A DNA stretch of 38,787 bases from Bacteroidia bacterium. GTDB lineage: Bacteria > Bacteroidota > Bacteroidia > J057. Under the pieces are notes generated by a model. That model searched no databases and was not told where the DNA came from. It worked only from the letters and a program-made list of their open reading frames with translations. The position numbers and the translations under genes are program-made. Of the stretch, positions 80 to 28,457 are shown one piece after another. Position 1 is the stretch's first letter. Every line of letters starts with the position of its first letter. The stretch spans positions 1 to 38,787 of the forward strand of contig JAUIKF010000068.1 of assembly GCA_030430575.1 (NCBI GenBank), given 5' to 3'.

Positions 80-127
80 CTCTTTTTAATGCAAGATATT
101 ACATTTCTTGGAGATGCGTTTGCCCTG
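1..127 (-). mobile_element. End of an ISAs1-like insertion sequence inserted in the STAND ATPase gene
   Basis: Read on the minus strand, the ATPase reading frame keeps family-like sequence up to a Glu-Pro-Glu-Lys at codon 226. It then enters the sequence CAGGGCAAACGCATCTCC, which starts at base 127. A terminal CAGGG is typical of ISAs1-family ends, and about 48 bases further in a new reading frame with transposase-like sequence opens. The element continues beyond base 1, so its other end, the full inverted repeat and any target duplication cannot be seen. The boundary is inferred from the loss of STAND-like sequence and the form of the end. Confidence 0.6.
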
Positions 128-805
128 TTTTTCTGGTTCATCCACTTCAAAAAACTGTTCATAATAAGGCGCATCCAGGATCGACTCGATGACGTTTTGG
201 ACCTTGGATCGCGTCATCTTTTCCAGGCGAAACCGGTGTTGGAAGATGGTGGGACAAAGGGGTTCAAACTCCGATAGATGACCAATAAATTCTTCCCGCA
301 TGATCAGGATGACCCGGCAAGGCACTTTGTAGCGAATCAGTTTATTGAGCCGCATGAAGAAGTCTTTTTTTTCTTCTTCATTGCCAGAAATAAGCACCTC
401 TTCAAATTGGTCAAACAAGAGATAGACGGGCTGAAAGCGTTCATTGAAAAGTCGCTCGATCGCTTGCCCAAAACCGATGGAATCATCCTTAGGTCTGCCC
501 GTTTGAGGATTGATCGCCACCTTTTCTGCTAGGGCTTCATTGATGCGCGCGAAGGTCGAGGAGATCATATCTTTGCCTCGACGGATGCTCAGGGCATACC
601 AGTCTGCATCAGAAAACTGATTGCGGAGTCCACATTCGATCAAGCTGGTTTTACCAGCCCCTGAAGGGCCATAGACCAGCAAATGCTTCACGCCACTCAG
701 CGCGTCATAAAGCGCTTCCGTCTCTGTTTCTCGTCCAAAAAAGATGTCTACATCTTTTTGCTCGTAGGAGTCCAGGAATTTGAATGGAGAAGTTTGCGTA
801 TTCAT
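86..805 (-). pseudogene. nSTAND1-type P-loop ATPase, truncated by an insertion sequence
   Basis: The N-terminal 226 residues are a typical nSTAND1 NTPase module. They open with PFKFLDSYEQKD and a FFGRE motif, followed by Walker A GPSGAGKTS (residues 46-54), Walker B LLFDQFEE (129-136) and a sensor-type MREEF (169-173). Family members continue for hundreds of residues with a winged helix and repeats or an effector domain. Here the last 13 residues (from Gln227) are encoded by IS sequence and end at a TAA, so the C-terminal half is lost or displaced. The ATG overlaps the stop of the upstream gene (ATGA), so the genes are translationally coupled. STAND ATPases act as ATP-dependent oligomerising switches in immune-like conflict systems. 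A stable NTPase-only remnant could still be made. Confidence 0.8.
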
Positions 806-2169
806 GAAGCAGCGGATTTAAAGGGTTTGAGGACGGCATCCATCTGCTCATAGAGATCATTGAGCTTGGGCTGTTTGGTGTTTTCGACGGAGACGGTAAG
901 GCTTTTATTGGAGGTCAGTGAAGTCTGACCTTGAAGCGGCAATTCATTTTTGTATTGGGCAAAATGGAACCTCCTGCCTCGTTTACTCTGACCGATATAA
1001 TAAAAGACCTCAGGTGTCTGGGTGTTTTTATTGGCAAAAACACTTTGATCAATCAACAGGGGGGAAAGAGAAATATAGGAAGAATCGTCCTGAATATTTT
1101 CCAGACAACTGCTGATATGTGTCCCTTTAAACAGCAAGACGCTGTGATTGTAGGTGAAATATTGATCAACGATGATGGTGTTGTAATCTCCACTTTCAGA
1201 ATCGGAAAAGGCCTGATCATACATGCCGTGGAGCTCTCCATATAGGTGAACAAAACTCTTGGTACTGCCCAGTCTATAGCTGAGGTTGATGTCCTTGATG
1301 CTGACCAGGCGGTATTTGGCGAGAAAAGCGAGCTTGCGCAGCCAATAGGTTAATCCCGTAAGGTATTGAGGAATTAATTCTGGCAATTCAGCTTCCTTAA
1401 TTTCCTGCCTGATCAGGCGGTTTCGTTGGGTTTCGAGGAAAAGGCTTGTCGCATACAGATCACTCTCTGTGTCCAGTAGCAGATCCAGAAAACGCCCGAT
1501 TTCTGCGACAAATGGCTCCGCATCCACCTCCGCCAGACTGGTCAATAAATTGAGGTAATCATAATTGCTCTCCTCCGCTAGCTGCCCATCAAATGGATTG
1601 CCATTTAATTGAAAATAGGCGTTGAGTAAGCCTGCCTGTGAGGTGTCCTCATGCTTGATCAGTTCCGCCAGGCGGATCAGGGTCAGGTAGCGAATCGAGC
1701 TAAACCACGCCTCTGTCATAAAGGAAAGGGACCGAAGGTCTCCTGCCTGTCCGGGAGGTGTGAGCATCTTCTGAAGGAAAACTTCTATCAGCCAACCATA
1801 ATAATTGATGATCTCGGAGGGGTTGTTGGGGACAGCTACCCGCTGCTTCTGAAGCTCTTGTTTCAGGCTTTGAATCCACCGATTTCTATCGGTGATGAGG
1901 TCTTGCCGCAACTCTTCCGGCAGCGATTTATCTGTCCGCGACTGATCGACCACAAAATCAAAGTTGCCCTCCGTGACGGTAGCGATGTTAAATGCTTTTC
2001 CCGCTGCTTCAAACATTTGACTTTGATAGTCCTTCAGCAATTCCTTCAGTTCTGAGAGTTCTTTGCGGATCTCTTTACTTTCCCCGTCCACATTGATGGT
2101 AATAGAACTTTCGCTTACCTCCTGAATGACAATGTTTTGATTTCCTTGAACTTCTGCCTGGTTGCTCAT
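802..2169 (-). CDS. Conflict-operon protein with N-terminal NIVIQ-type motif, function unknown
   Basis: This 455-residue protein is not recognised as a known family. Residues 9-26 (GNQNIVIQEVSESSITIN) form a short alternating hydrophobic motif. Close copies lie at the C-termini of the two proteins encoded just upstream. Residues 30-55 are charged and helical, probably coiled coil (IRKELSELKELLKDYQ). A long, mainly helical body follows (about 85-300), then a more beta-rich tail (about 310-440). There is no signal peptide, membrane helix or obvious enzymatic motif. It starts 9 bases after the EAD11-like gene and overlaps the STAND gene by 4 bases. Its role is inferred from context: a scaffold or effector partner of the STAND ATPase, perhaps assembled through the shared motif. 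Confidence 0.7.
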   Translation of the reverse strand: MSNQAEVQGNQNIVIQEVSESSITINVDGESKEIRKELSELKELLKDYQSQMFEAAGKAFNIATVTEGNFDFVVDQSRTDKSLPEELRQDLITDRNRWIQSLKQELQKQRVAVPNNPSEIINYYGWLIEVFLQKMLTPPGQAGDLRSLSFMTEAWFSSIRYLTLIRLAELIKHEDTSQAGLLNAYFQLNGNPFDGQLAEESNYDYLNLLTSLAEVDAEPFVAEIGRFLDLLLDTESDLYATSLFLETQRNRLIRQEIKEAELPELIPQYLTGLTYWLRKLAFLAKYRLVSIKDINLSYRLGSTKSFVHLYGELHGMYDQAFSDSESGDYNTIIVDQYFTYNHSVLLFKGTHISSCLENIQDDSSYISLSPLLIDQSVFANKNTQTPEVFYYIGQSKRGRRFHFAQYKNELPLQGQTSLTSNKSLTVSVENTKQPKLNDLYEQMDAVLKPFKSAAS

Positions 2170-2178
2170 CTATTTTTA

Positions 2179-2541
2179 TTAAGAAGGGTAAATATTGATG
2201 GTACTCCCGGTTACCCCTTGAATGACAATGTTTCCATCGCCTTCTACTTCGACTTGGTTGGTAGGAGAATTGGGGCTATCAGCCTGGGCCTGGCTTTGGG
2301 GGCTGATCTCCCTCATCATTTCCAGGATGGCATGTTGAATCTTTGCCTTTTCCAGATTGGCATCTTCTCGGGAAATGATTCCGCTTAGCTCTTCCTGCCG
2401 TAGGCGATTCCAACGGCCAGAAAGCAAAATAAGGGAGTTTTCGGTATCTGGGTCTGTATTGTTTTGAAGGAAAGTGGAAAGGGCTTTCGCAATATCTCCT
2501 TTGATCAGAAAGTCTTTTACTTGCTGTGACAAATCATTCAT
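2179..2541 (-). CDS. EAD11-like effector-associated domain protein with C-terminal NIVIQ motif
   Basis: Residues 5-78 match the pattern of Effector-Associated Domain 11, a small helical death-domain-like adaptor. They show a 'DFLIKGDIAKAL' opening helix, an 'N-S-L-I-L-L-S-G-R-W-N-R-L' central helix, the Gly-Ile-Ile-Ser turn at 54-57 and a final helix ending AILEMM. In the family such domains couple NTPase sensors to effectors through homotypic contacts. After a polar Gln/Ser/Pro linker (80-98) comes GDGNIVIQGVTGSTINI (101-117), the same motif as in both neighbours. The gene overlaps the upstream 138-residue gene by 8 bases and precedes the 455-residue gene by 9. The EAD11 call rests on pattern recognition, not a profile search. 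Confidence 0.7.
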   Translation of the reverse strand: MNDLSQQVKDFLIKGDIAKALSTFLQNNTDPDTENSLILLSGRWNRLRQEELSGIISREDANLEKAKIQHAILEMMREISPQSQAQADSPNSPTNQVEVEGDGNIVIQGVTGSTINIYPS

Positions 2542-2950
2542 CGTTCTTGGGGGTGTTTATGTTAATCGTTACGCCAGTACCAATATCTTGAATATTGATA
2601 TTCTTATCGCCTCGGATTTTGGTGATGTTTTGTTTGCTAAACATCTGCTCCAATGGCTTTCCTGCTGCGTCTTCTACCTGCTTAAGCATAGCCTGAATTT
2701 GAGACGCAAATTCTGGTTCTTCAAGCGCAGTCATCAGGACTTCATTGAAGTCTTTTTGGAAGTCTTCGTCTTCGGGGTACTTTTCCAGCCTTTCCAAGGC
2801 TTTTTCAGGGTCCTTTTTGCCTTTGAATAGGTTTTTTAATCCATCCTTCAAGGATGAAACGGCTTCTTTTGCGCCCGTTTTTACGGCTTCTTTGGTAAAT
2901 AGTGACACAAGCGCACCTACAGTGAGTTCTGCCATAAGGAGTTTCTCCAT
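2534..2950 (-). CDS. Small helical conflict-operon protein with C-terminal NINIQ motif
   Basis: First gene of the four-gene minus-strand operon. The N-terminal 30 residues are an amphipathic or weakly hydrophobic helix (VGALVSLFTKEAVKTGAKEA), followed by a basic stretch and a charged helical region to about residue 105. The C-terminus carries GDKNINIQDIGTGVTININ (114-132), matching the motif of the next two proteins. Met7 (2932-2930) is a plausible alternative start, because a GGAG lies nine bases upstream of it and the MAELTVGALV start looks natural. No family was recognised. A role as a membrane-active or adaptor component is only inference from the helix and the operon. Confidence 0.65.
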   Translation of the reverse strand: MEKLLMAELTVGALVSLFTKEAVKTGAKEAVSSLKDGLKNLFKGKKDPEKALERLEKYPEDEDFQKDFNEVLMTALEEPEFASQIQAMLKQVEDAAGKPLEQMFSKQNITKIRGDKNINIQDIGTGVTININTPKNDE

Positions 2951-12000: not shown

Positions 12001-12086
12001 GGGTTGACAGGTTGAGTAGGATAAAAGAGACTGTTCCCTTCAAGTATCACTGTTTTAAAAATATATGAAAACAAGGCTCATTTTTA

Positions 12087-15000
12087 TCATTTATTGATAT
12101 TATTCCTTTTTCTAAGTACTGGAGGCGCATTCTCTTTCAAGTCTGCAAGATTCAATCTTTTTAATCCTGTGTTAAATGCATCTTCGATTGTTCCTCCTGA
12201 AGCAATTGCTTTGTAAAATCCTTCAGAAAAAACTTTTGCAGTTTCATCATCTAAAATATCAGGCATTCCAATTACAAAATCTACATATCGAAGGAGAGTC
12301 TTTGCCCTTGCATCTGAGTAGCAAGCATTTAGTACAACACATTTTACTTTTTTTGCTTCTTCAAATAAATTAGCCCATTTTTCAATGTTTTCGTACTTCC
12401 CTGCTTGTCCATTAGTCTCGAATGAAATTCTTCCCGCTTGATCACCGTGTCCAGCAATATGTACAATATATGGATCTGAATCCCATAAAGCGGATTGTAA
12501 TTCAGTTAAAGTCACAGCAAATTCTTGATCTAGATTATAATCGTCCCTGTTCCGAGAATCTTTAATTGCCTTTTTAATTGCTGAAATTTCTAAATCGATT
12601 CGAACCCTCGAAGTATCTTCTGGATTTACCCCAATAAATAAAATATTCTTTTTTCTATTTTTATACCTATTATTTCTGTATTCAAATTTATTATCCGCAA
12701 GAAATTCTTCCTTTCTTTGGGTAGATGTGGAAACTCCATTTAGTAGTTCTTTAACATTCTTTTTGGCTTTTAATTCTTTAATATAAATTTCTTCATCCCC
12801 CATGTTCTCTAAATCCAAAAGAGTTTCATAATCGACAGAAACTTTCCCAAAATCATCTAAGGGTATCTGTTCGCATGGATTTGATCCTTTAATCTTTTCG
12901 TTTATAGTCAGGATATAATCTCTCAAAATTGATAAGACCTCTCGTCTATTTCCTTCCCCTACGATTTCTATTTGAATAACTTTTTTACCAGGAATGGCTC
13001 TTATCAAGGCAATACACCCTAACTTCTCAATTATTACTCCATTCCTCCAGTATTTTCCTTCTTGAATCAAGTTGTGGACTTTAACAATAAAACGAGCAAT
13101 TACATTCTTAGACAAATAATCATGTTTTATTTGAAACCGTAATTTTTCGTCATTTTGATAATCAGGCAATAATTCTTCAGGAGGATCTAGCGGAAAAACT
13201 CCAGGAACAAAGTATTTCTCTTGCTCTTCAGGAATTTGATAGCAGAGTTCAAAATATTCCATCATTTCCATGATGAAATTTTGCTCAATAATCGTAGGAT
13301 ATTCTTCTTTGCTGAGGATTGATTGAACCTGAGCAAGGTCGATCACTCCTTTTTGTTTATTTAATATATCAGATGTAACAATAGCATAAACACCTTTTGT
13401 AACCCATGAGGGATTCAAAACATGGGTAAAATGAAAACTAGTCTTCGAACTATAATCCTTAAAATTTAACATTAAGCCTAGGTCATGAAATAAGCCAACC
13501 ATAACCTTTAAGCTCAAATCATCCAAATCTGGGTGAACTCTTTGACAAACAGCTTTAAAATCAGGGAACTGCAAATAGTCTTTATTCTTTTTTGTTATGT
13601 GTTTTTTAATTTCCAGATAAAATGCGGGTACTCTATCATCAACATGATCTAAATTATTAGCTGTTTTTTTTATCAGCTTTTCAAGTTCTTCTATTCCTTC
13701 TCCAGTTGAACATGACGTCTTCACAAATGCAACGATATTCTCATTTTCCTCTTTTAGTTGCTTAAATCCGAAGCTTTGACTGTCAAATTGATCACATTTA
13801 TTCTGAACTACTATAATGGGCGAGTCACCCCCATAACTAGCAATAAGTCTTAGCCAATATTGTAGGTTTGATCGCTCATAAGAATCTTCATTTCTTGAAT
13901 TAATAACCAAAACATAAATACTCCTTCTTGTCATGAAGAATTTATGAGTCGCGTGCATTATCTCTTGTCCCCCAAAATCCCACATGTGGAGTAAAATTGG
14001 TTTATTTCTATATTTAATATCCCAATCTTTTATTGCTACTCCATGTGTTGGTGACTCTTGCGAATCATAAGATCCTGATATTAATTTTTTTGTCAAGGAT
14101 GTTTTTCCAACATCTCCAGACCCAACAAAAATAACTTTAGCTTCACTTAATTTTTTGGTCCCTTCCTGAAGATCGATGATAAATTGGAAAATTTCATTAG
14201 GCTCTTTGGTATAAATTTCGTCTGGAATATTAAAATTATTTCCTTCTAAATTAAGCCCCCTATCTTCTTCATGAATTTTCTGATTTGTAGTAAGGTTGGT
14301 TAGATTTTCAATTTCTTTAGGAAGTTTTTTTAACTGATTAAATCCCAAATCTAATTTTTCCAATTCTACAAGATTCTGAATCTCAGATGGGATTTTTGTT
14401 AATAGATTAGAGTCTAACGTTAGGATTTTGAGGTGAGGAAGTTTACAAATATCTTTTGGCAGGTCTGGAATATTGTTTTCATAAAGGTCTAACTTTTTAA
14501 GCCTTTTCAGGTATTTTATTGATTGCGGAACCACATTCAATCTGTTATTTCCCAGGTTAAGAATCTCTAATTGTTCTAGTTGTCCAATGAAATCTGGAAG
14601 ATGACGTAATTGATTATTATGAAATGATAATAGTTGAAGAGTTGTTAATTTTTGAACCTCTTTTGGGATTTCTTTAAGGAGATTATGCTCTAACTTCAAT
14701 TGTTTTAAGTGTACAAGTTGCCCAATTTCCGATGGGACAGTTTTAATTTTATTATGCCCTAAGTCTAGGTGTCGAAGGTTCGATAATTCAAAAATCTGAC
14801 TTGGGATAGCATTTAATTCACAATTCCTTAGAGAAAGTGATTCTAAATGGACAAGCTTGGAGAATTTTCTAGGTAACTCAGTGCATTGTTCTTTTTTTAG
14901 TTCGAGACTGAGAATTTGTTCTGCAATTGCAAAATCAATGAGTTCGTGGATATTAATTATTTGAGCAATTGAGTATTTCTCTCTTCTTTTTCGGCGATAC

Positions 15001-15596
15001 TTAGGATTACTAGCAGAAGCCCTAAGTTCAGCGGCTGACATAATGTTTGCTGATGTTTCTTCCTCTACTAGGGGTGCTTGCTTTTTTTCTTTTGTATCTG
15101 AAATATCAATTTTGCCAATAACTTTCAATCCTCGAAGGTTATTATGATCAGCAGTGTTATCCTCTCCCCCAATTTGTCCTTCTCCAGCTAGTTCATTTTT
15201 TTCAAGCTCCTCTGCTGGAGGAGTTCCTTTTTCTACTTCTTTAGCAACAGGTTCTATCAATGGATTCGTGGTGCTATTGGCGGATGCCCTCAATTGGGCC
15301 GCGGACATGAAGTCCGCTGGGGTTTCTTCTTCCTTGGGCGGTTTGGGAGGCTCTGGCTTGGTAGTGGTATGATGAAAACGCTCTTCATTTCGCTTTTCAA
15401 CAATTTGTTCACCCCTTTCTTTCATTTGTTTGTCAGAAGCAAACTCCTTCAAAAGCAAATCATACAATTCTCCTGGAATCTTTGTATTAGGTGAGTTCTC
15501 TACATGATGACCATTTCTCACTAAGTGGTCAACAAGCATTGTCGTACCAACATTTAATTCCTTAGCAACTTTAAACAGTCGTTTAACTTTTGACAT
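12087..15596 (-). CDS. IF2N-like / LRR / Roc-COR GTPase / CHAT-protease fusion
   Basis: An 1169-residue multidomain protein. Residues 1-65 resemble the N-terminal domain of translation factor IF-2 (RLFKVAKELNVGTTMLVDHL, ENSPNTKIPGELYDLLLKEF). A low-complexity linker (66-208) holds two copies of EEETxAxxMSAAxLRASA, at 89-106 and 178-195. Leucine-rich repeats span about 225-435 (LxxLxLxxNxLxxIPxxI, about nine). The Roc GTPase domain has a P-loop GSGDVGKTS (492-500), switch WDFGGQE (539-545) and NKCD (599-602). A COR-like region follows to about 930. The C-terminal CHAT caspase-like domain has His1050 (HIAGHG) and Cys1092 (LNACYS) as the predicted dyad. It starts 3 bases after the EACC1-like gene. 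The design suggests LRR sensing, GTPase switching and protease output in immunity or regulated death. Confidence 0.88.
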   Translation of the reverse strand: MSKVKRLFKVAKELNVGTTMLVDHLVRNGHHVENSPNTKIPGELYDLLLKEFASDKQMKERGEQIVEKRNEERFHHTTTKPEPPKPPKEEETPADFMSAAQLRASANSTTNPLIEPVAKEVEKGTPPAEELEKNELAGEGQIGGEDNTADHNNLRGLKVIGKIDISDTKEKKQAPLVEEETSANIMSAAELRASASNPKYRRKRREKYSIAQIINIHELIDFAIAEQILSLELKKEQCTELPRKFSKLVHLESLSLRNCELNAIPSQIFELSNLRHLDLGHNKIKTVPSEIGQLVHLKQLKLEHNLLKEIPKEVQKLTTLQLLSFHNNQLRHLPDFIGQLEQLEILNLGNNRLNVVPQSIKYLKRLKKLDLYENNIPDLPKDICKLPHLKILTLDSNLLTKIPSEIQNLVELEKLDLGFNQLKKLPKEIENLTNLTTNQKIHEEDRGLNLEGNNFNIPDEIYTKEPNEIFQFIIDLQEGTKKLSEAKVIFVGSGDVGKTSLTKKLISGSYDSQESPTHGVAIKDWDIKYRNKPILLHMWDFGGQEIMHATHKFFMTRRSIYVLVINSRNEDSYERSNLQYWLRLIASYGGDSPIIVVQNKCDQFDSQSFGFKQLKEENENIVAFVKTSCSTGEGIEELEKLIKKTANNLDHVDDRVPAFYLEIKKHITKKNKDYLQFPDFKAVCQRVHPDLDDLSLKVMVGLFHDLGLMLNFKDYSSKTSFHFTHVLNPSWVTKGVYAIVTSDILNKQKGVIDLAQVQSILSKEEYPTIIEQNFIMEMMEYFELCYQIPEEQEKYFVPGVFPLDPPEELLPDYQNDEKLRFQIKHDYLSKNVIARFIVKVHNLIQEGKYWRNGVIIEKLGCIALIRAIPGKKVIQIEIVGEGNRREVLSILRDYILTINEKIKGSNPCEQIPLDDFGKVSVDYETLLDLENMGDEEIYIKELKAKKNVKELLNGVSTSTQRKEEFLADNKFEYRNNRYKNRKKNILFIGVNPEDTSRVRIDLEISAIKKAIKDSRNRDDYNLDQEFAVTLTELQSALWDSDPYIVHIAGHGDQAGRISFETNGQAGKYENIEKWANLFEEAKKVKCVVLNACYSDARAKTLLRYVDFVIGMPDILDDETAKVFSEGFYKAIASGGTIEDAFNTGLKRLNLADLKENAPPVLRKRNNINK

Positions 15597-15599
15597 CGT

Positions 15600-16022
15600 T
15601 TAATTTCTCAGAATTTCTATCCGTTGTATTCTCTTTAAATCTTTAAGAAGCTGAAAACATTTTTCCTGTTCTTCCTTGGAGCCATTAATGGGTATTTGAA
15701 TCTCATCCTCTTCACTCTTTACTGTAATGAATTTCATTTCCCTTTCATGTTGCCGTTGCTTTTCGTTTTCAATTTGATTTATTTTCTTTTCATAGATTTT
15801 CAATACAGTAGTCACTAAGATTGTCATTAAGACTCCGATTAAGGCTAATTCTGCTCCTATAATAGTTGCAATAGCAACATCCGCGCTTCGAGTCCCTTTG
15901 GGCTTTGAATACAGAGAAAAGTCAATATTGGCGTTACCTGTCAATTCTCTATTAAGCTCATCTATTAATTCAGAGGGATTATCAAAGTCAGAAAGAATTG
16001 GGATTTCTATTGTATCACTCAT
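15600..16022 (-). CDS. EACC1-like single-pass membrane adaptor
   Basis: A 140-residue protein with one membrane helix (about 49-74, IATIIGAELALIGVLMTILVT). It is flanked by a short alpha/beta N-terminal part (SELIDELNREL, DFSLYSKPKGTRS) and a charged C-terminal part with IQIPINGSKEEQEKCFQLL. The order, a small N-terminal domain ending in a Pro-Lys-Gly-Thr-Arg-type linker, a helix, then a beta-alpha C-terminal domain, fits Effector-Associated Constant Component 1. That family accompanies NTPase and protease effectors in ternary conflict systems. It precedes the Roco-CHAT gene with a 3-base gap, so the two are cotranscribed. It probably tethers or senses at the inner membrane. The family call is by pattern only. 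Confidence 0.65.
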   Translation of the reverse strand: MSDTIEIPILSDFDNPSELIDELNRELTGNANIDFSLYSKPKGTRSADVAIATIIGAELALIGVLMTILVTTVLKIYEKKINQIENEKQRQHEREMKFITVKSEEDEIQIPINGSKEEQEKCFQLLKDLKRIQRIEILRN

Positions 16023-16758: not shown

Positions 16759-18696
16759 ATGAGTATTCAGATCATATTGCCAGACGGCGCCGCCAAAGCA
16801 TACGACGCTGGTGTCTCTGGTCTCAAAGTTGCCACAGACATCAGCGAGGGCCTGGCTCGTAACGCCCTGGCAATCAAGGTCAATGGCGAAGTCCGCGAAC
16901 TGGCAAGACCTATCACAGAAGATGCGAATATAGAAATCCTCACGTGGAGAAATGAGGATGGCAAAAAGGCCTTTTGGCACTCATCTGCCCATATCATGGC
17001 AGAAGCCATCTTACAGCATTATCCAGATGCCAAATTGGGATTTGGCCCGCCGATAGATGACGGTTTCTATTACGACATCGATTTTGGCGATACACCGTTT
17101 GGAAGTCATGACTTTGAGAAAATCGAGAAGACATTCATAGAGTTGGCAAGAACGGCTCAGACTTTTGAGCGTAAGGACGTGACCAAGGCGGAGGCATTGG
17201 CACACTACCAAGAGCGCGATAACCCTTATAAGGTAGAGTTGATCGAAGGCTTGGAAGACGGGGACATCACCTTCTATGAGTCAGGCAACTTTGTGGACCT
17301 GTGCAAAGGGGGACATATCCCTAACTCCAAGGTGATCAAGGCCATGAAGATCCTCAAGGTCGCTGGCGCCTATTGGCGAGGAGATGAGAAGAACAAGCAA
17401 TTGACGCGTCTGTATGCCATTTCTTTCCCCAAAGCGAAAGAGCTAAAAGAGCACCTCGAACGCCTCGAAGAGGCCAAAAAACGGGATCACCGTAAGATCG
17501 GTAAGGAGCTGGAGCTATTCACTTTCTCTGACAAGGTAGGCATGGGTCTGCCCCTCTGGCTGCCCAAGGGTGCACGTATGCGCGAGACCTTGGTAGCTTT
17601 CCTCAAGAAAGTACAAGAACGTGCAGGATATGAACCTGTGGTAACACCACATATTGGCAAAAAGGATCTCTACGTCACCTCAGGCCACTGGGCCAAGTAT
17701 GGTGAAGACTCCTTTAGCCCGATCAATACGCCTCATGAAGGAGAGCAATTCATGCTTAAACCCATGAACTGTCCCCATCACTGTGAAGTCTATGCTTCCC
17801 GTCCACGGTCTTATCGTGACCTTCCGTTGCGCTTGGCAGAGTTTGGAACGGTGTATCGTTATGAGCAACATGGCGAGCTACACGGCCTCACGCGTGTGCG
17901 CGGATTCACGCAGGATGATGCACACATCTTTTGCCGTCCCGATCAGGTAAAGGATGAGTTCAAAGCGGTAATTGACATCGTATTGTACATTTTCCGCGTC
18001 CTTAAATTCGAAAATTATACCGCACAGGTCTCCTTGCGCGATCCCGAAAAACCTGAAAAGTATTTTGGGACGGATGAGCAGTGGAACGCGGCGGAGCAGG
18101 CCATCATCGAAGCAGCCGAGGAGAAGGGACTGGTCACTGTCCATGAGACTGGAGAAGCGGCCTTCTATGGACCTAAACTGGACTTCATGGTCAAGGATGC
18201 CTTGGGCCGTCAGTGGCAGTTGGGAACCATCCAGCTCGATTATCAGCTTCCTGATCGCTTCCAACTAGAATATACCGGTTCAGACAATAGTCCACACCGC
18301 CCTGTGATGATTCACCGCGCGCCATTTGGCTCGCTAGAGCGATTCATCGCCGTACTTATCGAACATACATCAGGAGACTTTCCGCTGTGGCTAGCGCCTG
18401 AGCAGGGCATCGTTTTGCCTGTCAGTGAACGGATGAATGATTATGCCTATCAAGTGAGAGATCAATTGAGAGATGAGGGCTTCCGATTCACCGTAGATGC
18501 AAGCAATGAAACTACTGGCAAAAAGATTCGTAATGCGGAACTCAACAAGTACCCCTTCATGCTGATCGTCGGAGATACCGAAGTCGCCAACAAAAGTGTA
18601 GCGGTTCGTAAGCGTAGAGGTGGAGATTTGGGAGAAATGGGAATAGCTGCTTTCATTGACCATCTCAAAGGTGAGATAACGGAATTGTTGAAGTAA
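16759..18696 (+). CDS. thrS: Threonyl-tRNA synthetase
   Basis: Charges tRNA-Thr. The 645-residue length is normal. An N-terminal TGS domain (1-61) is followed by the editing domain, with its metal-type residues His74 and His78 (HSSAHIMAEA) and Cys182/His186 (CKGGH). The class II catalytic core has zinc ligands Cys338 (MNCPHH), His389 (DDAHIF) and His519 (VMIHRAPFG), spaced as in the E. coli enzyme. An anticodon-binding domain (about 550-645) completes it. infC follows 67 bases downstream on the same strand, the standard thrS-infC order, so they are probably cotranscribed. Confidence 0.98.
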   Translation: MSIQIILPDGAAKAYDAGVSGLKVATDISEGLARNALAIKVNGEVRELARPITEDANIEILTWRNEDGKKAFWHSSAHIMAEAILQHYPDAKLGFGPPIDDGFYYDIDFGDTPFGSHDFEKIEKTFIELARTAQTFERKDVTKAEALAHYQERDNPYKVELIEGLEDGDITFYESGNFVDLCKGGHIPNSKVIKAMKILKVAGAYWRGDEKNKQLTRLYAISFPKAKELKEHLERLEEAKKRDHRKIGKELELFTFSDKVGMGLPLWLPKGARMRETLVAFLKKVQERAGYEPVVTPHIGKKDLYVTSGHWAKYGEDSFSPINTPHEGEQFMLKPMNCPHHCEVYASRPRSYRDLPLRLAEFGTVYRYEQHGELHGLTRVRGFTQDDAHIFCRPDQVKDEFKAVIDIVLYIFRVLKFENYTAQVSLRDPEKPEKYFGTDEQWNAAEQAIIEAAEEKGLVTVHETGEAAFYGPKLDFMVKDALGRQWQLGTIQLDYQLPDRFQLEYTGSDNSPHRPVMIHRAPFGSLERFIAVLIEHTSGDFPLWLAPEQGIVLPVSERMNDYAYQVRDQLRDEGFRFTVDASNETTGKKIRNAELNKYPFMLIVGDTEVANKSVAVRKRRGGDLGEMGIAAFIDHLKGEITELLK

Positions 18697-18763
18697 GCAG
18701 ATTTTTTCTTATATTTAATCTAGTAACAAACAATTTGTAGAATATTAAATCAACTTAAAAAAT

Positions 18764-19327
18764 TTGGCAAAAAGAAAATCAAGAAGACCTCCTCCACGTA
18801 GACGTCCAGTACGTGAACACAGAATTAACCACGAAATTCGTGTCCCTACCGTGAGAGTAGTAGGATTGGAAGAATCAGAAAATGGCATCATGCCTACCAA
18901 AGAAGCCCTTAGACTGGCGATGGAAGCAGAGCTAGATCTGGTAGAAATCGCACCCAAGGCAGACCCCCCAGTGGTCCGGGTGATCGAGTACACCAAATTT
19001 GCCTATGAACTCAAAAAGAAGAAAAAGGCAAATAAGGTGAATCAACAAAAGACCGTGATGAAGGAAATTCGTTTTGGTCCCAATACCGATGACCACGATT
19101 TCAACTTCAAACTCCGACATGCCCAGAAATTCCTGGCTGAAGGCAATAAGCTCAAAGCTTATGTACAGTTTCGCGGTAGAAATATCCTCTATAAGGATCG
19201 TGGCCGTGACGTACTCCAACGCTTTGCAGAAGAATTGGCTGAAGAAGGGAAAATTGAAATGTTTCCCAAAATGGAAGGGCGCAGGATGATCATGATTATG
19301 GCACCTGTCAAACCTACAAAAAACTAG
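18764..19327 (+). CDS. infC: Translation initiation factor IF-3 with UUG start codon
   Basis: The N-terminal IF3 domain (about 20-90: HRINHEIRVPTVRVVG, GIMPTKEALRLA) and a lysine-rich linker (KKKKKANKVNQQ) precede the C-terminal ribosome-binding domain. That domain contains KEIRFGPNTDDHDFNFKLRHAQKFL. The 187-residue length is normal plus a short basic extension. The only usual start after the upstream in-frame TAA (18746) is TTG at 18764. A rare start codon is the known basis of IF-3 autoregulation in E. coli (AUU there), so the same logic may apply. rpmI and rplT, which usually follow infC, are absent; a strong terminator follows instead. Confidence 0.96.
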   Translation: MAKRKSRRPPPRRRPVREHRINHEIRVPTVRVVGLEESENGIMPTKEALRLAMEAELDLVEIAPKADPPVVRVIEYTKFAYELKKKKKANKVNQQKTVMKEIRFGPNTDDHDFNFKLRHAQKFLAEGNKLKAYVQFRGRNILYKDRGRDVLQRFAEELAEEGKIEMFPKMEGRRMIMIMAPVKPTKN

Positions 19328-21325: not shown

Positions 21326-22207
21326 ATGAGCGAGGAAAAAGAAAGATATATCAATCCATTAACTGACTTTGGGTTTAAGAAACTTTTCGGAACTGAGCCG
21401 AATAAAGATTTACTAATTGACTTCCTTAACCAAATCCTCCCCGATAGAAAGATCAAGGATTTATCGTATTCATCAGGAGAAAAACAAGGTTTGACAGCAT
21501 TGGATAGAAAAGCAATTTTTGATTTGTACTGCATAGGCGATAAAGGGGAGCGTTTTATTGTCGAAATGCAAAAAGCGAAACAAAATTACTTTAAGGATAG
21601 AAGCGTTTTTTATGCTTCTTTTCCCATTCAAGAACAAGCCAAAAAGAAGTATTGGGATTATAAATTGGACCCTGTTTATTCTGTCGGGATTTTGGACTTT
21701 TCCTTTGATGACCACAAACACGAAAAAGAACTCCTACATGTTGTTGAATTGAAAAATCAAAGGTGTGAAGTCTTTTACGATAAATTGAAATTCGTATACA
21801 TTGAGCTATCAAAATTTAACAAGAAAGAGGAAGAATTAGAGACCCAGTTTGATAAGTGGCTATATGTTTTCACCCACCTATCTCAATTGCAAGATCGTCC
21901 GCAAAAATTACAAGAGCGCATTTTTACAAAACTATTTGAAGCGGCTGAGATTGCTGGATTTACCCCTGAAGAAAGGGAAGCTTATGAGGAAAGTTTAAAG
22001 TATTACCGAGATATAAAAAATGTGGTTGATACTTCAAGAGAAGAGGGGTTAATGGAAGGCATGGAAAAAGGCATGGAAAAGGGAATGGAAAAGGGAATAG
22101 AAAAGAGGAATATTGAGATCGCAAGAGAACTCAAAAAAAATGGGGTTTCTATGGAAATAATTATACAATCTACCGGTCTTTCAAGAGAAGAAATCGAAGT
22201 ACTATAA
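21326..22207 (+). CDS. Rpn-family PD-(D/E)XK nuclease/transposase-like protein
   Basis: The opening RYINPLTDFGFKKLFGTEPNKDLLIDFLN is hallmark sequence of the Rpn/PDDEXK_2 family, recombination-promoting nucleases once annotated as transposases (the run is residues 7-35). The nuclease core shows Asp66 (AIFDLYC) and Glu80-x-Gln82 (FIVEMQKAK). The tail is rich in MEKG repeats (residues about 243-258) and ends in a helical GLSREEIEVL segment. Length 293 is normal. Such genes spread horizontally and cut DNA in RecA-independent recombination; they also occur in defence islands. The gene is clearly more AT-rich than holA and the peptidase beside it, in keeping with transfer. Confidence 0.88.
   Translation: MSEEKERYINPLTDFGFKKLFGTEPNKDLLIDFLNQILPDRKIKDLSYSSGEKQGLTALDRKAIFDLYCIGDKGERFIVEMQKAKQNYFKDRSVFYASFPIQEQAKKKYWDYKLDPVYSVGILDFSFDDHKHEKELLHVVELKNQRCEVFYDKLKFVYIELSKFNKKEEELETQFDKWLYVFTHLSQLQDRPQKLQERIFTKLFEAAEIAGFTPEEREAYEESLKYYRDIKNVVDTSREEGLMEGMEKGMEKGMEKGIEKRNIEIARELKKNGVSMEIIIQSTGLSREEIEVL
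22052..22107 (+). repeat. In-frame 12-base tandem repeat in the Rpn gene
   Basis: About four and a half units of a 12-base repeat (GGAATGGAAAAG-like) encode the MEKG-MEKG-MEKG-IEKR string. The period is a multiple of three, so unit gain or loss would change protein length without shifting frame. MEKG-type runs of variable copy number are common in this family. Confidence 0.75.
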
Positions 22208-26730: not shown

Positions 26731-28041
26731 CTATTCCGACCGCTTGATCTCCTTTTTATTGCCACTAGGATAGAGGATATGGTAGCCAGAAATTTGGCCA
26801 TTTTCCATAAAGAAATCCAACCTAGGGAGGTCTGAAAGGGGCGTTTGCTCACTTTCAAAGGTAAATTTTCCGTCTGGCTGTCTGAGCAGGCGGGTCGTGA
26901 TGCCACTTGTATGATTTTGGTAGAATAGCTTATCATCCCACAGGACAATTTCTCTTTCGCCATACTTCCCTACATACGGCACGAGTTCATCTCTTTGGAT
27001 GCCGAGCTGGGCAATTTGAAGGGTTAATTTATCGATAAGGAGCTGGTGTTCGGGATATTGGGAAATGGTTTCTTGAAGCCCTGCTAGGTGCCCATAAAGA
27101 AGGGCATCTGATGCCTCGACTACCTGATCAGGGATCACCCCCACGCCCTCCCAGTTGGTTTGGGTGATGGGATTGATGGCTTTGCCGATGGGGATCATGG
27201 CGCGAAAGCCATCGGGCAAGGCGTAGACTTTGGCGGGGTTGGCGCCGCCGCGCGTCGTATCGCCGATGATCGTAGCACGTCCTAGCTGCCGCAGGTCATA
27301 GGCCAAGCCTTCTGCTGCAGAGGCTGTTGATGGTCCCACTAGGAAGTAGAGTGGCATTTTTTCTAGGCGAGGGCCATCTAGCTTTTTGGTGGAGGTAAGG
27401 GGAATAGTAGCGTTCGAAGGGCGGAAATAAAGGCTGCTGAATGTCGTTAGGGGTTTCTTCGGGAAAAAATAGCTAGCAATATAGGCAAGCATCTCAGGCG
27501 AGCCACCCGTGTTGTGGCGCAAGTCGATGATCAACGCATCAGCATATTGCACAAAGGAAAAAGCGGCAGCCACTGTTTTTTGCCCTGCCTCCCATTCCGA
27601 AAAATCGTCAAATCGTACATAGCCGATATTTCCTTCCAGGAGTTCAGCCCGCTGGAACCCAAAGTTCTGGCGTTTGTCGAATGCCAGATAATAGGCATCA
27701 TCATAGTCAGTGACCTCTCCTTCATCGCTATACACATCCAGGGTTGAGGGACCTGCATAAATAAACAAATGCATGTCATTGGAGACCCTTTGCAGGTCTT
27801 CCGTCAACTGTGCGGCAAAGGCTTCCCGCTCCTTGATCGGAGAATAGCTGTTCTGAGACCATTTTTTATCCAATATATCCACCATCTTTTCCCCCATTTC
27901 TGGTGAGATATACAGATGCGTGAGCATGTCTTGAAGGTTTTGCACCACTTCACGCTTGGTTTTGGGGGAAAGGGGCGTGGTTTGGGCGGAAAGGAGGCTA
28001 CCATAGAGGAGGCAAAAGAGGAGAAGAAGGGGGTTTTTCAT
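26731..28041 (-). CDS. Secreted S41-family (IRBP/tail-specific type) serine protease
   Basis: Signal peptide MKNPLLLLFCLLYGSLLSA, probable cleavage before Gln20. The S41 core includes GNIGYVRFDDF (138-147), ALIIDLRHNTGGSPEM (169-184) and the nucleophile Ser241 in GPSTASAAEGLAYDL. GGANPAKVYALPDGF and WEGVGVIPDQVV (the latter typical of the 'GxGVxPD' C-terminal part) follow. No PDZ domain is evident, which fits the interphotoreceptor retinoid-binding (IRBP)-like subgroup. The C-terminal 90 residues look like a small beta domain. The ATG overlaps the stop of the PIN toxin gene by 4 bases, so it is translated behind a toxin-antitoxin pair. Its substrate is unknown. Confidence 0.92.
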   Translation of the reverse strand: MKNPLLLLFCLLYGSLLSAQTTPLSPKTKREVVQNLQDMLTHLYISPEMGEKMVDILDKKWSQNSYSPIKEREAFAAQLTEDLQRVSNDMHLFIYAGPSTLDVYSDEGEVTDYDDAYYLAFDKRQNFGFQRAELLEGNIGYVRFDDFSEWEAGQKTVAAAFSFVQYADALIIDLRHNTGGSPEMLAYIASYFFPKKPLTTFSSLYFRPSNATIPLTSTKKLDGPRLEKMPLYFLVGPSTASAAEGLAYDLRQLGRATIIGDTTRGGANPAKVYALPDGFRAMIPIGKAINPITQTNWEGVGVIPDQVVEASDALLYGHLAGLQETISQYPEHQLLIDKLTLQIAQLGIQRDELVPYVGKYGEREIVLWDDKLFYQNHTSGITTRLLRQPDGKFTFESEQTPLSDLPRLDFFMENGQISGYHILYPSGNKKEIKRSE

Positions 28042-28457
28042 GAATACGAACTCAAAAATTCTTCTGGTGTCTGAATAATCAATTTACTTCCTTTAAAATC
28101 TTTGGGGTTTCTAGTAACTATCGTTTTTATATCTGGAACTTGATATGCCGTAAAGTTCTGAATAGCATCTTCAAAGTCTTTAAAGTTTGCTCTTAATGCT
28201 TGTCGAATAGTCATTTTATTTACCCCCAATACTTCTACAATACGCTCCAAACGATCAAGCAAAATCATAGCCTTTTCATGTCCCACTAGCTTTCTTAGAA
28301 TATAATAAGTGTCTCCAAAACAAAGAGATGATACATAGACAACCAATTTTTCTTTTTCTGCAAGGTCAAAAATCTTGGTTGACGCATTCGCAAATGGTTC
28401 CCTATCTATCAAAAAATCAATGATGACATTTGTGTCAACAAAAACGGCTATTTTCAT
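28038..28457 (-). CDS. PIN-domain ribonuclease toxin (VapC-like)
   Basis: A 139-residue PIN domain. The acidic active site is formed by Asp8 (VFVDTNVIIDFL), Asp94/Asp97 (FKDFEDAIQ) and Asp120 in the TRNPKDF motif, typical of Mg-dependent RNases that cut tRNA or rRNA. SLCFGDTYYILRK is typical of the subgroup paired with DUF6364 antitoxins. The antitoxin gene ends 1 base upstream, and the toxin stop overlaps the S41 protease ATG. The pair is more AT-rich than its surroundings, which suggests transfer. Confidence 0.92.
   Translation of the reverse strand: MKIAVFVDTNVIIDFLIDREPFANASTKIFDLAEKEKLVVYVSSLCFGDTYYILRKLVGHEKAMILLDRLERIVEVLGVNKMTIRQALRANFKDFEDAIQNFTAYQVPDIKTIVTRNPKDFKGSKLIIQTPEEFLSSYS

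Follow-up and report, generated by a model that had tools for sequence, protein, structure and literature searches.

Plant nucleotide-binding leucine-rich repeat (NLR) receptors carry integrated decoy domains. In this study, we describe a bacterial gene of comparable design, located on the minus strand of a 38,787-nucleotide stretch of DNA (positions 1 to 38,787 of contig JAUIKF010000068.1, assembly GCA_030430575.1 of a Bacteroidia bacterium; hereafter the window). It encodes an immune-type receptor with leucine-rich repeats (LRR), a Roc-COR unit and a CHAT end, and its front part is a copy of the N-terminal arm of the organism's own translation initiation factor IF-2 (gene infB). As in the plant receptors, an immune receptor contains a copy of a host protein part that is proposed as an attacker's target. 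Unlike in plants, the receptor is bacterial, Roc-COR and CHAT replace NB-ARC, and the copied part comes from a translation factor. The Roco proteins (bacterial Roc-COR proteins, relatives of LRRK2) have the same LRR-Roc-COR order and motifs, whereas the receptor adds the IF-2 arm in front and a CHAT protease at the end. By sequence, its CHAT domain is closest to the SAVED-CHAT proteases (PADLOC model SAVED_CHAT, PDB entry 8tl0), but no SAVED domain was found in the receptor, and Roc-COR stands before CHAT.

Two further systems are comparable in layout or in content. As described by Kaur et al. (2020, PMC7159879), EACC1-caspase systems consist of a 5' gene for a small membrane protein with one helix and a 3' gene for a caspase-superfamily protein with a variable part; EF-Tu domains are among these variable parts, and decoy action was proposed for inactive enzymes in related systems. 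In the same article, 'IF2' appears in a single reference title only, and the term 'initiation factor' is absent. The layout recurs at the present locus, where the CHAT gene is preceded, at a distance of 3 bases, by a gene for a 140-residue one-helix protein (by eye); however, the caspase-like domain is C-terminal in the receptor and N-terminal in the EACC1 systems as presented there. In PARIS, AriA is the sensor and AriB the effector (PMC12409363), and AriB is released to act (PMC12409363; PMC11455837). An AriA from the same family as our genome bears the same kinds of IF-2 piece as the receptor; switch and effector are different, and the captured arm is the sole shared part. In the literature searched, which excluded most subscription papers and preprints, no description of IF-2 arms in defence proteins was found.

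Domain organization of the receptor

The receptor gene and its parts are as follows (window positions).

12087..15596, minus strand: receptor gene, 1169 amino acids, with IF-2 arm, LRR, Roc, COR-A, COR-B and CHAT (open reading frame and domain matches)
15261..15596, minus strand: residues 1-112, copy of residues 1-112 of the own IF-2 (N-terminal domain and SAAQLR piece), 104/112 identical
15081..15140, minus strand: residues 153-172, copy of the second IF-2 linker motif (LKVxGKIDxxD), equivalent to IF-2 309-328
15013..15066, minus strand: residues 177-195, second copy of the IF-2 EEETxAxxMSAAxLRASA piece (BLASTN E 4e-7 to infB 264-317)
14298..14891, minus strand: leucine-rich repeats, about residues 236-433
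13791..14138, minus strand: Roc GTPase domain (487-602) with Walker Lys498
12735..13628, minus strand: COR-A (657-799) and COR-B (817-954)
12174..12599, minus strand: CHAT caspase-like protease, Pfam stretch 1000-1141, with His1050 and Cys1092

Pfam matched LRR_8 (1.8e-34), Roc (3.1e-30), COR-A (1.1e-26) and COR-B (3e-21). Roc and both COR domains score above the Pfam cut-off and COR directly follows Roc, as in members of the Roco proteins. The Pfam CHAT match (3.5e-4, 20.6 bits) lies under the cut-off of 24 bits, and PADLOC returned CHAT models only, both weakly (SAVED_CHAT 2.4e-5, chat 2.7e-5). The CHAT end matched PDB entry 8tl0 ('CHAT domain-containing protein', which we take to be a SAVED-CHAT) with an E of 6.9e-10; His1050 and Cys1092 stand in CHAT motifs and Lys498 in the Walker motif. 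By the His/Cys dyad and the 8tl0 match the receptor end is a CHAT protease of predicted activity. An earlier note on this DNA had read LRR, Roc-COR and CHAT in one chain and had named Lys498 and Cys1092; the Pfam, PADLOC and 8tl0 matches agree with the former and the motif positions with the latter. By analogy with known parts, the LRR would be the sensor side, Roc-COR the GTPase switch and CHAT the protease.

Five Roc-COR relatives were obtained from a genome-contig scan, none of which covers the arm or the CHAT end. The IF-2 arm is also absent from all four other Roc-COR proteins of the own genome whose ends were read. Other Roc-COR proteins of this genome (L005, L006, L007) have ends that look DUF4062- or TIR-type by eye; thus, the effector end appears to be swapped.

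Origin and constraint of the N-terminal arm

When the own genome was searched with residues 1-65 (E up to 10), two places only were found, the receptor gene and infB. The receptor is 92% identical to the own IF-2 over residues 1-65 and identical at 104 of 112 positions over residues 1-112, and the DNA of the arm is 80% identical to infB across 335 bp (E 1e-83). The likeness extends past residue 65, since residues 153-172 correspond to IF-2 309-328 and residues 177-195 to IF-2 88-106 for a second time. For the end of the arm, near residue 206, the protein alignment is weaker, and it runs out where both proteins are basic. Judged from these alignments, the arm copies the N-terminal arm of the own IF-2 in a shortened and slightly rearranged form. 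The earlier note had described the first 65 residues as IF-2-like, and the relationship proved stronger than claimed there. The profile search that it had proposed gave no match: Pfam IF2_N (PF04760) hit neither receptor residues 1-112 nor the equivalent stretch of the true IF-2. Because the profile misses both alike, the identification of the arm rests on descent from infB, which is indicated by the identity over 112 residues, by the DNA match and by the grouping of the arm with IF-2 of its genus in the tree described below. Between the arm domain and the second IF2_N domain of IF-2, hhalign showed a weak relationship (E 0.0024, probability 12). When PDB was searched with a profile of the arm up to E 10, no IF-2 structure came up, and alignment-free structure prediction gave unusable models (predicted local distance difference test score 53 for residues 1-112 and 36.5 for the CHAT end).

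Substitutions between the arm and infB were counted over 112 codons according to Nei-Gojobori. Differences were present at 59.0 of 71.5 synonymous and at 10.0 of 264.5 nonsynonymous sites; in the linker (residues 66-112) the counts were 23 of 31.7 and 3 of 109.3, respectively. The own IF-2 and that of G009, the only further member of the genus in the family search, have 62 synonymous and 42 nonsynonymous differences. The contrast between the two comparisons is significant (Fisher P 3.3e-4), with silent sites saturated in both, and therefore the times are not comparable. Since synonymous sites are saturated and nonsynonymous changes are few, the receptor copy of the arm is, by this pattern, old, with a protein sequence that was kept, linker included, and not the product of an assembly join. 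An assembly artefact, a recent duplication and gene conversion were rejected, because most synonymous sites differ from infB, which is present as a whole gene behind nusA on a contig other than that of the receptor.

Second IF-2 arms in other Bacteroidota genomes

Genomes with a second match to the IF-2 N-terminus were searched in the family of the receptor genome (hereafter G000; 13 genomes, single-sequence query), in its order (22 genomes, profile A1), in overlapping and non-exhaustive samples of the class (396 genomes) and the phylum (392 genomes), and in the orders of two carrier genomes, G101 and G282. A completeness of at least 90 was required in both samples and in these two orders. For the class and phylum samples, at most 15 candidates were scored per genome, and second matches were taken from the per-genome counts and follow-up searches. 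In family and order, second matches were confined to G000 and G003. Of the 396 genomes in the class sample, 379 matched at E<=1e-8, 12 of them with two matches. In the phylum sample (E<=1e-10) 219 of 392 matched, and three had two (G000, G586 and G647). All four genomes in the order of G101 and 33 of 34 in that of G282 gave a match; only G101 and G282 themselves had two. The 14 genomes with two matches comprise six distinct proteins other than IF-2, three cases of a protein of about 900 residues, three small basic proteins, and two IF-2 genes or pieces. The latter two were dropped as carriers, as the second match was another IF-2 gene in G181 and a 113-residue piece at a contig end in G341.

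PADLOC ties four of the six distinct carriers to systems, namely PARIS, AriA-like, BREX and Mokosh. The carrier of G003, a genome of the same family as G000, is a 360-residue ATPase (AriA, 7e-51) whose gene overlaps that of the AriB behind it (3.9e-15; L063:6558-8695). Its IF-2 domain comes after Walker A, in a stretch left unaligned with E. coli AriA, and its C-terminal tail equals KPKVVGKIDLESFRRKTP of the own IF-2 in 18 of 18 residues; at the DNA level the tail differs from infB by 10 nucleotides, and all 10 changes are silent. In G282 the carrier is a 776-residue AriA-like ATPase (1.9e-15) with the IF-2 domain near the C-terminus. The G647 carrier (1182 residues, weak cold-shock match, IF-2 domain in the middle) lies in a BREX island (L105:3113-6661, minus strand), adjoining PglZ (5.4e-255), with BrxL (3e-91) further out. 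The G586 carrier is a 754-residue MkoB-like protein (6.3e-7) that adjoins MkoA (4.4e-112). In G101, a 552-residue protein with an ExoX-like C-terminal motif (7.2e-8) and a UPF0489 neighbour (L061:3672-6087, minus strand) form a possible new defence pair. Its arm is identical to the own IF-2 in 57 of 65 residues, with differences from infB at 35 of 39.3 synonymous and 11 of 155.7 nonsynonymous sites. A second kept stretch was seen by eye, IDIDLLSQKTKPGKKSKK versus IDLDALNQKTKPGKKSKK of the own IF-2, and lies outside the catch of the linker motif pattern. This motif, GKI[DE]L, is present in many IF-2 arms, and we know of no function for it. The placement of the arm thus varies among the carriers from N-terminal to a position after Walker A, in the middle or near the C-terminus.

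The lineage origin of the arms was assessed by scoring each carrier arm against 46 IF-2 arms and by a tree of 55 arms over 66 columns, in which many forks are unresolved. The own IF-2 ranks first of 46 for the arms of G000, G003, G101 and, by a single point, G282, and second, by one point, for that of G647. In the tree, the receptor arm groups with IF-2 of G000 and G009 (100/98), its pairing with G000 alone being weak (88/31). The G003 arm groups with the G003 IF-2 (99/91), the G101 arm with four IF-2s of its genus (98/87), and the G647 arm falls inside the clade of its genus (99/95). As the tree places the arms of G000, G003, G101 and G647 with their own lineages, at least four captures look independent.

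The protein of about 900 residues occurs in three genomes of one genus (G057, G094 and G123), has an IF-2-like domain at its N-terminus (L110:3881-6583, L109:4988-7720) and adjoins infB in G057. The small basic proteins (G172, G285 and G356) have an IF-2-like N-terminus; the two at L067:4053-4856 and L066:3661-4560 (minus strand) also carry the GKIDL motif and lie amid apparently ordinary genes. Neighbouring genes were read in G057 and G094 for the former and in G285 and G356 for the latter.

Phage, plasmid and viral records

An IF-2 arm query other than the receptor's own arm had no match in 50,697 phage records. A second such query matched one of these records, MT835665.1 (L108), which was rejected: it is labelled Bacteriophage sp. 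and reads as a piece of bacterial chromosome with nusA-infB-sufB. In plasmids, three arm queries found three records, i.e. an annotated infB, an unannotated record 87% identical to that infB, and a 1.77-Mb Prevotella record. One narrow pattern derived from profile A1 gave 28 stretches in viral contigs, of which none was confirmed.

Putative partner gene and genomic surroundings

15600..16022, minus strand: protein of 140 residues with one membrane helix (by eye), partner by position only, with a 3-base gap upstream of the receptor

For this protein no match was found in the 12 other genomes of the family or in plasmids; in viral contigs its patterns gave 34 stretches with none confirmed, and its best E in PADLOC was 0.027. 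As a candidate EACC1 it fits by layout, but neither Pfam (up to E 10) nor NCBIfam (up to E 1), both of which presumably include an EACC1 model, gave an EACC1 match. Receptor and partner form an AT-rich block with 32-38% G+C (four 1-kb segments, 12001-16000) versus 42-51% in most others. A superoxide dismutase gene lies on one side of the pair, and osmC, thrS and infC on the other. That thrS and infC, the gene for IF-3 (16759-19327, plus strand), adjoin a cassette with an IF-2 arm is probably a coincidence. Elsewhere in the window, an open reading frame for an nSTAND1 NTPase (86-2950, minus strand, E 5.9e-33) with three small neighbours at the left end possibly represents another conflict-type cluster. 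A protein of the PD-(D/E)XK transposase family is encoded at 21326-22207 (plus strand, E 2.9e-75), and a PIN_3 domain protein, which may be the toxin component of a toxin-antitoxin pair, at 28038-28457 (minus strand, E 1.6e-20), where an AT-rich kilobase begins.

Discussion

The sequence data establish an origin of the arm in the own IF-2, strong constraint on its protein sequence, intact switch and protease motifs, an operon-like gene pair, and recurrence of the arm in antiphage-system proteins. A copy of a host protein part is fused into an immune-type receptor, which is the arrangement of an integrated decoy. From this we infer a role of the arm as bait, and with it an attacker, an activation path and a protease target. 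The N-terminal ~200 residues of the receptor would imitate the arm of the own IF-2, and an invader factor directed at the IF-2 arm, whether by binding, cleavage or modification, would engage the receptor's copy as well. The engaged copy would switch the LRR-Roc-COR unit, the GTPase switch, and the CHAT protease would be released to cleave one or more proteins and stop the infected cell, possibly acting near the membrane together with the 140-residue partner. We give an even chance to the proposal that the arm serves as an integrated decoy, aimed at phage factors that attack IF-2. Sensing is favoured over effector delivery, because the arm stands at the LRR end of the receptor and, in PARIS, on the sensor AriA and not on the effector AriB. 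This location on a sensor subunit, together with the silent-only changes in the AriA tail, makes us lean towards a decoy. It is tempting to speculate further that Bacteroidota antiphage systems have repeatedly and independently captured their own IF-2 arm as a decoy, with at least four captures (Roc-COR-CHAT, PARIS AriA, BREX-island and 552-residue proteins); this broader proposal is tentative and falls somewhat short of an even chance.

Several observations weigh against the decoy proposal. A phage protein that targets the IF-2 arm is not known to us, and a tether would explain the constraint on the arm just as well. The fusion is based on a single genome, since no receptor orthologue was found in the 12 other family genomes or in one genome-contig scan. 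The count of defence carriers is based on six proteins and on PADLOC names, without a control set of housekeeping proteins; among the six, the G101 carrier had no PADLOC match (up to E 0.01) and the present receptor had weak CHAT matches only. The G282 arm is barely own-like (140 versus 139) and the G586 arm shows little likeness to its own IF-2 (20th of 46); both have long branches and an unsure place in the tree. The GKIDL motif pattern had no match in the arms of G282, G586 and G647, and its strict form none in that of G101. Both the protein of about 900 residues and the small basic proteins are without a clear defence setting. Among these non-defence cases the own IF-2 ranks first for G356, 23rd for G285 and 43rd for G094; the first rank for G356, a small basic protein, means that likeness to the own IF-2 also arises outside defence.

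The link of the arm to translation is well supported, as the arm is a copy of the own IF-2 arm and lineage-specific copies recur in antiphage-system proteins. This part of the suggestion in the earlier note, a decoy or docking unit tied to translation, stood; decoy and docking are both possible. In the docking case, the main rival, which we consider less likely than the decoy, the arm would act as a tether or translation monitor that brings the receptor to whatever the IF-2 arm normally binds, the ribosome or an initiation complex, and the receptor would strike the translation machinery locally or be released once infection stops translation. A real IF-2 part under strong constraint would be expected here as well, and lineage-specific capture also fits a match to the cell's own partner. 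Moreover, two carriers are PARIS-like, and AriB of PARIS halts translation via tRNA cutting (PMC12409363; PMC11455837). The small basic proteins with IF-2 N-terminus and GKIDL motif, which lie amid apparently ordinary genes in the two cases with neighbours read, point in the same direction. However, the PARIS arm is on the sensor AriA, whereas AriB is released to act, and a tether has no obvious need for a linker kept at 3 nonsynonymous versus 23 synonymous changes.

The earlier note had also considered a reused small helical adaptor, that is, an old IF2_N-like fold that serves for contacts in conflict systems and is unrelated to IF-2 function. Such an adaptor, improbable overall, is disfavoured for the receptor by its 104/112 identity to the own IF-2. 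The domains of G000, G003, G101 and G647 fall in the IF-2 clades of their own lineages, and IF-2 linker motifs are also present in G000 and G003, with a related stretch in G101 (by eye). For G586, G094 and G285, whose domains are not closest to their own IF-2, we keep the adaptor open; the weak relation of the domain to the second IF2_N domain of IF-2 would suit it too. The arm stands at the very N-terminus of the receptor, as would be expected if the 5' part of infB had been joined to the receptor gene by an old chance fusion and were a mere start region or solubility tail. Such a fusion is highly improbable, given that silent sites are saturated while the protein has hardly changed, that one IF-2 piece occurs internally for a second time, and that proteins unrelated to the receptor carry the arm at internal or C-terminal positions.

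If the arm were a tether, it would still represent a new way to place immune effectors on the translation machinery. If the integrated decoy is true, bacteria would have built plant-style integrated decoys from their own housekeeping protein. The decoy would then point to a phage strategy directed against the IF-2 arm, and the arm could be used as bait to fish out the factors involved. As a rule for reading genomes, a silent-saturated copy of part of a core gene in a defence protein would mark a phage target. Should the repeated captures be true as well, phage factors that attack IF-2 would have to form a widespread class that has so far gone undescribed.

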